Of a stretch of 64,000 nucleotides of DNA, positions 22,021-49,107 are shown piece by piece; the first letter of the stretch is position 1, and the number at the start of each line of letters is the position of its first letter. The notes under the pieces were generated by a model. The model was not told the DNA's origin. It saw only the letters and a program-made list of their open reading frames with translations, and made no database searches. The stretch lies in NCBI RefSeq assembly GCF_009908265.2, contig NZ_JAAATX020000003.1, positions 1-64,000 of the forward strand, given 5' to 3'. Made by a program: the position numbers and the translations under genes. This stretch comes from Paragemmobacter amnigenus. GTDB taxonomy: Bacteria; Pseudomonadota; Alphaproteobacteria; Rhodobacterales; Rhodobacteraceae.

Positions 22021-22066
22021 CCCCAAATATCCCACGGGGGTCCGGGGGTGTGAAACCCCCGGTCCG
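22021..22066. repeat. CAAATA/GGGGGTCCGGGGG element, copy 1
   Basis: The plus strand reads CCCCAAATATCCCACGGGGG, then TCCGGGGGTGTGAAACCCCC, then GGTCCGC. It contains a CCGGGGG/CCCCCGG hairpin. It starts 6 bases beyond the glcD stop. A clearly related element is at 61857-61905, also right after the stop of a minus-strand gene and in the same orientation. Confidence 0.65.
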
Positions 22067-32518: not shown

Positions 32519-32704
32519 ATGCCCATCGACGCCCCCGAAACCGAAGTCGTCACCATATGGAAAGTGGCCTGCGACGGGGGCGAAGGCGCGCTTGGCCATC
32601 CCCGCGTCTGGCTGACGATTCCGCAGGACACCGGCTGGGTCGAATGCGGCTATTGCGACAAGCGCTACGTCATCGACCGCGACCACGCCCACGACGACCA
32701 CTGA
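32519..32704 (+). CDS. Zinc-finger protein of the NDUFS6 (complex I) type
   Basis: A 61-residue protein with one zinc site C18-x8-H27-x15-C43-x2-C46 and the phrases [18 protein letters not shown] and [14 protein letters not shown]. This is the CHCC zinc finger of the mitochondrial complex I subunit NDUFS6, whose alphaproteobacterial homologues are accessory subunits in Paracoccus-type complex I. ATG 32519 follows GAAGGAAAGG; an earlier in-frame ATG at 32489 lacks such a site. Its stop lies 4 bases before a hairpin array. No other complex I gene is near. Confidence 0.85.
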
Positions 32705-32708
32705 CGAA

Positions 32709-32834
32709 GAAATTTCTGGCGAAATTTCCTCTCCCGATCCTTCTCGCGAAGGATCGCCCCAGCCCGATTTTTCGCCAGAAAAATCGCCTCCAAGAATTTT
32801 CGCCAGAAAATTCTTGCCCCCGCTTGACGCAAGC
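32709..32834. repeat. Tandem hairpin array A (four hairpins with a constant apex, plus a fifth)
   Basis: Hairpins: 32709-32728 (GAAATTTC, TGGC, GAAATTTC), 32735-32756 (CGATCCTTC, TCGC, GAAGGATCG), 32765-32786 (CGATTTTTC, GCCA, GAAAAATCG), 32791-32816 (11-pair stem, GCCA). The apex reads TTCTGGCGAA, TTCTCGCGAA, then twice its reverse complement TTCGCCAGAA. Stems share no sequence. A fifth, GCTTG-ACG-CAAGC (32822-32834), carries the apex word of array B. It is AT-rich against a very GC-rich background and follows the NDUFS6-type gene. Confidence 0.85.
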
Positions 32835-46998: not shown

Positions 46999-47346
46999 AT
47001 GTCCACGCCCGCCCCCCATCCGCTCGACACGGTCTTCGCCGCGCTGGCCGATCCCACGCGGCGCGCGATCCTGACCATGCTGCTCGAGGATGACATGGCC
47101 GTCACCGATGTGGCCGAACCCTTCGCCATGTCGCTGGCCGCAATCTCCAAACACCTCGCCGTGCTGGCCGAGGCGGGCCTGATCACGCAGGAAAAGCGCG
47201 GGCGCGTGAAATGGTGCAAACTGGAACCCGACGCGCTGCGCGCCGCCTCGGTCTGGATGCAGGGCTTCGGACAATTCGATCCCGTCGACCTCGACGCCTT
47301 CGAACGCTTCCTCGAAACCGAACTGGGCGACGGGGGCGTTTCCTGA
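46999..47346 (+). CDS. ArsR/SmtB-family transcriptional regulator
   Basis: A 115-residue winged-helix regulator (LADPTRRAILTMLLEDDMAVTDVAEPFAMSLAAISKHLAVL AEAGLI in two parts). It has a single Cys (KWCKLEP) and no metal-binding ELCVCDL box, so it belongs to the metal-independent group often found next to activator-of-Hsp90-like proteins; none is adjacent here. Its last codons and TGA stop lie inside the first hairpin of array B. Confidence 0.88.
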   Translation: MSTPAPHPLDTVFAALADPTRRAILTMLLEDDMAVTDVAEPFAMSLAAISKHLAVLAEAGLITQEKRGRVKWCKLEPDALRAASVWMQGFGQFDPVDLDAFERFLETELGDGGVS

Positions 47347-47431
47347 CGCAGGAAACGCGCCGGAATTTGACGCAAATTCCGGCCCCGATTTTTGCGTCAA
47401 AAATCGTCGCGAAATCTGCGTCAGATTTCGC
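47336..47431. repeat. Tandem hairpin array B (four perfect hairpins with a constant apex)
   Basis: Hairpins: 47336-47358 (GCGTTTCCTG, ACG, CAGGAAACGC), 47360-47382 (CCGGAATTTG, ACG, CAAATTCCGG), 47386-47406 (CGATTTTTG, CGT, CAAAAATCG) and 47409-47431 (GCGAAATCTG, CGT, CAGATTTCGC). All stems are perfect and unrelated. The apical word is TGACGCA twice, then TGCGTCA twice. The TGA stop of the ArsR gene is in the first hairpin and the stop of the convergent matB gene in the last. Spacers are only 1-3 bases. Acts at least as a two-way terminator-like block. Confidence 0.9.
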
Positions 47432-48941
47432 CCTGTCCCGCGAACCACCCCTTGTAGCTCTCGCGCAAGACGTTCTTCTGCACCTTGCCCATGGTGTTGC
47501 GCGGCAAAGCCTCCACCACCACCGCCGCCTTTGGCTGCTTGAACCGCGCCAACCGATCCGCAATCGCCGCCAGCACCGCCCCCGCCTCCAGCGCCGTGCC
47601 CCTCTCGGGCACCAGCACGGCAAAGACCGCCTCGCCGAAATCCGGATGCGGCACGCCGATCACCGCGCTTTCCGCCACCCCCGGCACCTCGTCCAGCAGC
47701 AGCTCCACCTCCTTGGGATAGACGTTGTAGCCCCCCGTGATCACCAGATCCTTCGCGCGGCCCACGATATGCACATAGCCGTCCGCATCCCGCTTCCCCA
47801 GATCGCCGGTGATGAACCACCCGTCCGGCCGCAACTCCTCGCGCGTCTTTTCGGGCATCTGCCAATAGCCGACAAAGACATTCGGCCCCCGCACCTCGAT
47901 CATGCCGACCTCGTCCACCGCCGCCTCGCGCCCCTCGACCAGGATCCGCAGCTCCACCCCCGGCAGCGGATGGCCCACCGTCCCCGCCCGCCGCTCGCCC
48001 TCATAGGGGTTCGAGGTGTTCATGTTCGTCTCGGTCATGCCATAGCGTTCAAGGATGCGATGCCCCGTCCGCGCCTCCCACGCCTCGTGCGTCTCGGCCA
48101 GCAGCGGCGCCGATCCCGACACGAACAGCCGCATATGCCCAACCAGCGCGCGGTCCAGCCCCGCCTCGTCCAGCAGCCGCGTATAGAAGGTCGGCACCCC
48201 CATCATCACGCTCGCCCGCGGCAGCGCCGCCAGCACCGCGCCCGCCTCGAACCCCGGCAGCCAGATCATCCGCGCCCCCGCCAGCAGCGCCACGTTCGAC
48301 GCCACGAACAGCCCGTGCGTATGGAAGATCGGCAGCGCATGCAGCAGCACATCCCCCGCCGTGAACCGCCATTCCCGCACCAGCACCTCGGCATTGGACA
48401 GAAGGTTGCGATGGCTCAGCATCGCGCCCTTCGACCGCCCCGTCGTGCCCGAGGTGTAAAGGAACGCCGCCAGATCGTCGGGCCCGCAGGCCGCCACCCG
48501 CGCCAGAGGCTCCGCCCCGTCGGCCAGATCCGACAGGCTCCCCCGCCCCGCCGCATCCAGCGTCAGAAGCCGCGCCCCGTTCCGCTCGGCCACAGGGGCC
48601 AGCGCCGCTGCCGTCCCGCTGTCACAGACAAAGATGCGCGGCGTGGCATTGCCAAGGAAATACTCCACCTCCGCCGCCGTATAAGCCGTGTTCAGCGGCA
48701 GGAACACCGCGCCCAGCGCCACCGCCGCGCCATAGATCGCCAGCGCCTCGGGCGTCTTGGCCACCTGCACCGCGATCCGGTCGCCCTTGCCAAGGCCCAG
48801 CGCCGCCAGCGCCCCCGCCTGCCGCAGCACCAGCCGCAAAAAGGCATCCCCCGTCACCTCGCGCCCGTCGCGCAGGATCAGGAGCGGAGTCTCGCGCCCC
48901 GCCAGCGGGGCGAACAGCGCATCGTAAAGCATGTTGGTCAT
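47421..48941 (-). CDS. matB: Malonyl-CoA synthetase (MatB/ACSF3-like)
   Basis: A 506-residue adenylate-forming ligase that makes malonyl-CoA from malonate. The AMP motif is YTSGTTGRSKGAMLSHRNL, and ERYGMTETNMNTSNPYEG followed by RRAGTVGHPLPGV is the hallmark of the MatB branch. The C-terminal part has GWFITGDLGKRD and the Lys of NTMGKVQKN. ATG 48941 is used; the upstream part of the frame runs through a tandem 13-base repeat. Its stop lies inside hairpin array B. Confidence 0.9.
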   Translation of the reverse strand: MTNMLYDALFAPLAGRETPLLILRDGREVTGDAFLRLVLRQAGALAALGLGKGDRIAVQVAKTPEALAIYGAAVALGAVFLPLNTAYTAAEVEYFLGNATPRIFVCDSGTAAALAPVAERNGARLLTLDAAGRGSLSDLADGAEPLARVAACGPDDLAAFLYTSGTTGRSKGAMLSHRNLLSNAEVLVREWRFTAGDVLLHALPIFHTHGLFVASNVALLAGARMIWLPGFEAGAVLAALPRASVMMGVPTFYTRLLDEAGLDRALVGHMRLFVSGSAPLLAETHEAWEARTGHRILERYGMTETNMNTSNPYEGERRAGTVGHPLPGVELRILVEGREAAVDEVGMIEVRGPNVFVGYWQMPEKTREELRPDGWFITGDLGKRDADGYVHIVGRAKDLVITGGYNVYPKEVELLLDEVPGVAESAVIGVPHPDFGEAVFAVLVPERGTALEAGAVLAAIADRLARFKQPKAAVVVEALPRNTMGKVQKNVLRESYKGWFAGQGEI

Positions 48942-49000: not shown

Positions 49001-49107
49001 ACGCCCCGCCCTGCCGAGGAAAGACCCCGCGCGCGCCCAACTCCTGCCCGTTTTCCCCGCAACCTTAACGGCAGTTAACTCGCCCATCCGGGGAAGGAAG
49101 TCGCACC

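Follow-up and report, generated by a model that had tools for sequence, protein, structure and literature searches.

The window, a 64,000-nt stretch of Paragemmobacter amnigenus DNA, contains at 47336-47431 four perfect hairpins in the order forward, forward, reverse, reverse (FFRR). This array belongs to a family of cassettes scattered over the genomes of one genus. It is a dispersed, vertically inherited composite palindrome made of an outer and an inner hairpin, a spacer, and the inner and outer hairpins reversed. Family members have in common their order, their place beside stop codons, a constraint on pairing, vertical retention and an apex consensus. On these sequence features, we propose that the array may act as a two-way transcription stop or insulator with a REP-like layout, a reading to which we give a probability of about 0.5. 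To our knowledge, how transcripts end without a U-tract in high-GC alphaproteobacteria is poorly known. Dozens of gene ends per genome carry this conserved, mirror-symmetric element, which can be counted.

Hairpin calls confirmed the four perfect hairpins and the mirror order of the apices (TGACGCA, TGACGCA, TGCGTCA, TGCGTCA) reported in a first-pass annotation of this DNA. The gaps between hairpins are 0, 2 and 2 bases instead of the 1-3 bases given there. As that annotation also stated, the stop codon of the arsR gene is in the first hairpin and that of matB in the fourth; both lie in apices, and the last codons of both genes are inside the array (Table 1). MatB has 506 residues from the start that the gene caller selected and 539 in the longest ORF, which begins at 49040. 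The best named MatB matches include Gemmobacter aestuarii (75%) and Fuscovulum blasticum (73%). The array folds with a z-score of -7.5 as RNA and -7.1 as DNA. An Rfam search of the window returned tRNA and ffh only, the best match at the array having an E value of 0.88 and 22 bits versus a gathering score of 89. Searched against plasmids, one array gave a sole match, of 27 nt, in one Devosia plasmid. In the window copy, CCCGATTTTT follows hairpin 2 and, on the other strand, GACGATTTTT follows hairpin 4, owing to the 2-nt spacer; matches of this kind number 2 in 2 kb versus 1.1 in shuffles. The bare TGACGCA 7-mer, counted in the window only, occurs 18 times versus 8.6 expected, 4 of them within the array.

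Table 1. Features of the window: the two hairpin arrays and the convergent genes.
Feature	Position	Strand	Description
Second four-hairpin array, family B	32709-32816		Apex TTC[TGGC]GAA forward, TCGC variant, GCCA reverse twice
ArsR-family HTH regulator	46999-47346	+	115 aa; Pfam HTH_20/HTH_5; final codons GTT TCC TGA inside hairpin 1
Hairpin 1, outer forward	47336-47358	+	10-bp stem, loop ACG, apex TGACGCA; contains ArsR stop TGA (47344-47346)
Hairpin 2, inner forward	47359-47383	+	11-bp stem, loop ACG
Remnant spacer	47384-47385		2 nt; also 2 nt between the modelled 47-nt halves
Hairpin 3, inner reverse	47386-47406	-	9-bp stem, loop CGT
Hairpin 4, outer reverse	47409-47431	-	10-bp stem, loop CGT; contains MatB stop (minus-strand TGA, 47421-47423)
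MatB-like AMP-binding enzyme	47421-48941	-	506 aa; Pfam AMP-binding; final codons inside hairpin 4

Other such arrays exist. The 11-mer TTTGACGCAAA occurs 30 times in the 4.14-Mb P. amnigenus genome, against once for the reversed control word. All 24 places read (six duplicates omitted) fall within hairpin arrays, mostly FFRR, a few having imperfect or missing partners. A covariance model of one FF half, R1, was built from 29 halves (two exact repeats among 31 were dropped), picked at the loci located by TTTGACGCAAA when 8 or more of their 10 pairs were formed and the apex was TG[AG]CGCA. The halves of a second model, R2, were picked for perfect stems of at least 8 bp. Because of this preselection, the paired percentages of both models are inflated by construction. 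At E values up to 0.1, R1 gave 120 rows in the P. amnigenus genome, of which 39 were the opposite strand of a place already counted, leaving 81 halves at no fewer than 42 places. Genome counts with R1 and R2 are lower bounds, 150 candidates being scored per genome in this genome, in its sisters and in the R2 search. The 42 places comprise 37 forward-reverse arrays, one forward-reverse-reverse array and 4 single halves; none of the 38 places with two or more halves starts with a reverse one. The spacer measures 16-28 nt in 29 of the 37 forward-reverse arrays, and the window copy, with 2 nt, is an outlier. Clusters of three or more such hairpins number one in 727 kb of MatB loci taken from 80 public contigs and 0 in one first-order shuffled set of the same loci. 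This sole cluster, in Psychromarinibacter sediminicola (L170, 6353-6433), consists of three tandem hairpins with CTAG or CTGG loops, and so resembles the arrays but has a different apex.

The stems had been described as unrelated and freely varying. They are in fact not free: the family consensus is mostly GCG (or CCG)-nnn-TYTG[RCR]CARA-nnn-CGC (or CGG), in which the base and the top of the stem are shared and about 3 to 5 pairs are free. The conserved core spans positions 7-17 of the 23-mer. Among 240 hairpins, the loop is ACG in 180, GCG in 29 and ACA in 21.

The family extends to related species. With E values up to 5e-6, a stricter threshold than that used for the P. amnigenus genome, at least 35 places (30 forward-reverse, 5 single) were found in the sister genome G006 and at least 36 (28 forward-reverse, 8 single) in the sister genome G018. 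The order proposed in the first-pass annotation, two forward then two reverse, turned out to be a rule: all places with two or more halves run forward to reverse (38/38 in P. amnigenus, 30/30 in G006, 28/28 in G018). At 1e-4, R1 matches at least 21 of 61 genomes, namely all 19 of the genus, P. amnigenus included, and two further family members, which have 1 and 2 matches. Matches per genus genome vary from 1 to 98, opposite-strand repeats included (lower bounds, 101 candidates scored per genome). In 394 genomes across the family, at least five match at 1e-7 in four genera (15 candidates scored per genome). In the three additional genera, FFRR arrays are present in five of eight stretches (L341, L342, L344, L347, L348), with forward apices TGGCGCA or CGGCGCG, CGACGCG, and TGACGCA; one hairpin of L341 is imperfect. 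L343 and L346 have a hairpin pair only, and L345 has no cluster at the threshold used. All of the five except L341 have a called stop codon 3 nt or less from the array.

Many loci are retained between species. Both flanks of 23 of the 42 P. amnigenus arrays match an array locus in G006 at 80-88% identity (mean about 83%), and for 25 of the 42, one or both sisters have an array at the orthologous site. Between G006 and G018, 33 of 35 G006 loci match, mostly at about 98%.

The second array of the window represents another family, B, with TTC...GAA apices. It starts 4 nt past the stop codon of a 61-residue ORF (32519-32704, plus strand). Exact matches of TTTCTGGCGAAA number 55 in the P. amnigenus genome, where a control word has 0; none of 60 other genomes has more than 8. 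Model R2 (24 aligned rows; five of an earlier 29, most of them misaligned, were omitted) matches the P. amnigenus genome at least 77 times; of the 18 other members of the genus, 17 have two matches or more. Among 74 of the 77 matches, 40 places were distinguished, 34 forward-reverse and 6 single reverse; the order is again forward to reverse in 34 of 34. At the site orthologous to the window array, 6 of 16 other species (L324, L326, L328, L330, L331, L332) have hairpins of the same kind with other loops and 9 have none; the remaining contig ends there. In G006 (L325) and G018 (L327), the site carries a different sequence and no array. Elsewhere in other species, TTC[TGC]GAA is a frequent apex. 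In family B, TTC...GAA and the architecture are thus kept, and the loop word varies by species. Three R2 matches (L363, L364 and L365, in G012, G016 and G017) are pairs of perfect loop-free palindromes centred on TTCGAA, without any asymmetric apex. A solitary hairpin of family B is joined directly to a G/C-rich one at L217 and L228; this is perhaps a half array captured by another terminator.

The site between arsR and matB was compared in the genus, using the best-matching MatB loci of 17 genomes. ArsR adjoins MatB in 15 of them, P. amnigenus included. Eight of the 15 sites retain at least one family hairpin: the array is full or near-full in P. amnigenus, G006, G018 and G014, partial in G002, and reduced to one hairpin in G017, G005 and G010. 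No clear hairpin is seen in G008. In G013, G007, G011 and G003, a GC-rich hairpin stands behind each gene instead, and G015 and G016 have other GC-rich hairpins. This replacement of the array by GC-rich hairpins at convergent gene ends is the main reason for reading it as a two-way stop. Conversely, the seven sites of 15 without a family hairpin count against that reading. Such natural variants at one site, with four, two, one or no hairpins, are well suited to testing.

Placement was analysed with genes called by a codon-usage gene caller trained on seed genes. The 42 P. amnigenus arrays lie between convergent genes in 16 cases, co-directional genes in 22 and divergent genes in 4. On 43 of 54 stop sides, no more than 12 nt separate the array edge from the stop codon; start codons lie that close on 3 of 30 start sides. 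The corresponding counts are 34/47 versus 2/23 in G006 and 33/48 versus 1/24 in G018. Random placement in P. amnigenus gaps of at least 110 nt would give 30% of stop sides and 24% of start sides. Family B arrays behave similarly, with 20 of 27 stop sides within 12 nt in 17 arrays (three single-hairpin places and ten duplicate loci omitted from 30). The stop-codon placement and the symmetric order, in P. amnigenus, in its sisters and in family B, favour the two-way stop. So do the other convergent gene pairs of the window: a shared hairpin between the two stop codons is found in 7 of 9, with a T run in 1 of these 7 and on one strand.

According to the two-way stop reading, a polymerase coming from either side would transcribe two strong hairpins of about 10 bp right behind the stop codon, then two more. 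Because FFRR reads FFRR on both strands, both directions would yield the same transcript. The hairpin cluster would fold in the nascent RNA behind the terminating ribosome and stop or release the polymerase. The array would also block antisense read-through arriving from the other side, and 3' ends would be left capped by structure. Several observations do not sit easily with this scheme. In the 8 nt behind the array, TTTT is rare (3 of 84 ends), and TTT is present at 14 of 84. More than half of the arrays are not between convergent genes, 22 of 42 being co-directional and 4 divergent. Distal and proximal halves are equally well kept, the gene-proximal half scoring better in just 9 of 19 tandem arrays with two halves. 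Lastly, one family B array (L209) trails a hairpin that, by eye, already resembles an ordinary terminator. There (G000:C1, about 321800), a T-run hairpin directly precedes the array, giving two end signals in series. T is enriched at array exits over 3 nt only (33, 43 and 40% versus about 10% further out); the signal is weak, although in the direction that would be expected of a two-way terminator. Two-way terminators are flanked by A and T in the account of PMC1852404.

The proximity to stop codons could also point to translational control, the hairpins stalling the terminating ribosome from a distance of 15 nt or less. E. coli REP hairpins within 15 nt of a stop codon are described as stalling the ribosome (PMC12306157), and the 43 stop sides within 12 nt would be compatible with such a role, as would the 10 of 54 at which the stop codon is the TGA of the apex. 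This state is not conserved, however (2/47 in G006, 2/48 in G018), and the location of the stop codon within the apex is incidental. Stalling would require neither four hairpins nor a mirror order, nor a distal half maintained equally well, and we consider this explanation very improbable.

Sequence divergence separates the constraints on stems and loops. In 58 orthologous hairpins of P. amnigenus and G006 (about 17% divergence), 495 pairs are unchanged, 57 show two-sided and 28 one-sided changes, with 17 of the latter at the outermost pair. Stems differ at 142 of their 1160 bases and loops at 29 of their 174. Complete identity is seen in 7 stems and in 30 of the seven-base apices. Orthologous stems have 8.53 of their 10 pairs in common, versus 7.08 for unrelated stems, and spacer identity is 49% versus 41%. 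Loop differences per hairpin are 0.50 at orthologous sites versus 0.46 at other sites; loops carry no ancestry signal at this divergence. In 100 hairpins of G006 and G018 (2% divergence), 24 one-sided and no two-sided changes were counted in 2000 stem bases, against 16 changes in 300 loop bases and 36 non-identical positions in 685 spacer positions. For this comparison, 16 of 66 half comparisons were omitted, 7 missing a half and 4 differing and 5 identical ones not being of 47 nt. Loops and spacers thus change about four times as fast as stems. The stem changes are one-sided or compensated, and therefore stems are held by pairing. Because stems, loops and spacers evolve at measurably different rates, the arrays are a clean case to separate selection on pairing from selection on the apex.

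Perfect pairing may in principle arise as a mutational by-product, through template switching at quasi-palindromes, a known mechanism (PMC8794818), or through array-array conversion. Perfect stems and equal numbers of GU and AC cells speak for such an origin without selection. We put it low, since the stem changes between G006 and G018 are all one-sided: mismatches appear singly and are compensated later instead of a whole arm being rewritten in one step. Nor could self-templating maintain a consensus in an unpaired loop. We consider this origin very improbable.

Pairing is a stronger constraint than the apex word. The first-pass annotation proposed a constant apex on varying stems, the apex being read and the stem having only to pair. 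The covariation of the stems and the recurrence of TGACGCA, on different stems, in a further genus of the family (G318: L347, L348) agree with the former part, and only 30 of the 58 orthologous apices being identical does not. Of the latter part, the constraint on pairing and the survival of the apex consensus through turnover hold; the loop changes fit weak selection and not a strictly read word. Conserved stems with unconserved apices, named there as a refuting case, are partly seen in the 16/300 and 24/2000 changes at 2% divergence and in the loop, stem and apex differences at about 17%. Loops changing at about the spacer rate in the short term and showing the same distribution after turnover would fit weak stabilising selection on the apex. 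The TGACGCA-type apex may then be a favoured loop and not an essential signal for the putative terminator, explained by stability or by a weakly selective factor. Terminators are described in PMC5381666 as normally having loops less conserved than stems.

A stricter role for the apex would make the arrays a lineage-specific class of factor-read, strand-symmetric end-of-gene cassettes, in which a trans-acting protein recognises RCR between TG and CA. At least two families would then have separate apex codes, recognised on both strands or on extruded DNA; the TGACGCA code would be genus-wide and present in other genera, and the TTC-GAA code would drift between species. We regard this joint reading as rather unlikely.

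Mispairs were counted in 2400 pair cells of 47-nt halves (of 210 halves, 35 not of 47 nt and all those of G018 were omitted). Watson-Crick pairs account for 2296 cells, GU for 23, AC for 22 and other mispairs for 59, of which 43 concern the outer pair of hairpin 2. When the strand transcribed in tandem arrays is counted, with G018 and that outer pair omitted, GU and AC each number 7, a small number. In B. cereus terminators, a set filtered for pairing, PMC5381666 gives 4.98% GU and an inferred 0.02% of other mispairs. GU and AC being about equal and both rare here, it therefore seems that pairing is needed on both strands or in DNA. The former need fits the two-way stop. The latter would suit an element acting as DNA, either extruded as hairpins or cruciforms or bound as duplex, at gene 3' ends, by a protein of the nucleoid or topoisomerase type, the bound word being the apex with TYTG...CARA. 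Gyrase at E. coli BIMEs provides a precedent. The low GU frequency in comparison with B. cereus, the strong fold as single-strand DNA, the conserved core of the 23-mer and the loop consensus that survives turnover all speak for a DNA element. However, arrays track stop codons and not start codons, and ordinary hairpins replace them at an orthologous site, as expected for transcript ends; RNA pairing required on both strands predicts equal GU and AC as well. Given the equality of GU and AC, a DNA-level role has some probability, which we put well below that of the two-way stop.

The first-pass annotation viewed the array as the opposite of a REP element. Yet inverted palindrome groups beside stop codons are the layout of REPs and BIMEs. 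Like those of E. coli and Pseudomonas, the arrays are short dispersed intergenic palindromes in inverted groups, often near stop codons. Unlike them, they have four hairpins in fixed FFRR order, their stems diverge by compensation, and many of their sites are old and shared between species. They could nevertheless be selfish relics, left by a mobile palindrome that multiplied in the ancestor of the genus, inserted preferentially behind stop codons and has since been functionless. The dozens of copies at gene ends, the range of 1 to 98 matches across the genus, the amplification of the family B apex in P. amnigenus alone and the slight likeness of a few spacers (top identity 0.81 versus 0.76 in shuffles) are compatible with such an origin. 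Stems evolving about four times slower than spacers and compensated over longer times, and the sharing of array loci at both divergences, oppose it. An association with RAYT was rejected: PF01797 (Y1_Tnp) is absent in 5 of 5 genomes, in a search whose control was positive in 5 of 14 known genomes, E. coli included. Altogether we find functionless relics unlikely. RAYT-linked REPs carry a GTAG (or GGAG) tetranucleotide at the hairpin foot. Here the dinucleotide in front of the array is GG, AG or AA in 59 cases out of 84. It is TA, which might complete a GTAG together with the first G, in just 6 of 84; where read, these six adjoin a TAG stop codon.

CGTC-tagged REPs of Alphaproteobacteria resemble the arrays in forming inverted dimers without a dedicated transposase. 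As characterised in PMC3733652, their CGTC end is unpaired, their stems of 8-9 bp open with AT, their loops measure 4-5 nt and their tail is of the CCA type. The stems here are of about 10 bp and open with GCG or CCG, loops are mostly of 3 nt, and CGTC is found solely across the reverse apex. Hairpin clusters without U-tracts, contiguous and just behind stop codons, have been proposed as terminators (PMC8355165). The clusters of that report are generic and found by structure, whereas ours form a sequence family with fixed order and an apex consensus; hairpins do lie less than 15 nt apart behind the stop codon, and the spacer between halves is often longer than 15 nt. DNA uptake signals of Neisseria and Pasteurellaceae also place a repeated word in hairpins, mostly between convergent genes, but according to PMC1852404 the word is there the stem, in generally 1000 copies or more, and here it is the apex. 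Identity with uptake signals seems less likely. The arrays are built like REPs or BIMEs and placed like hairpin-cluster terminators; they lack the tested marks of RAYT-linked REPs, of CGTC-tagged REPs and of terminators with a U-tract. A literature search (titles and abstract openings, few subscription journals) found no description of such arrays.

A different stretch recurs behind stop codons in the genus. CCCCnGnGGATATTTG-like sequences were observed at the ArsR and MatB 3' ends of L242-L245 and, on the minus strand of the window, near 22050 and 61850. They are preceded by GC-rich hairpins or C-rich stretches, and look like another dispersed end-of-gene element of the genus.
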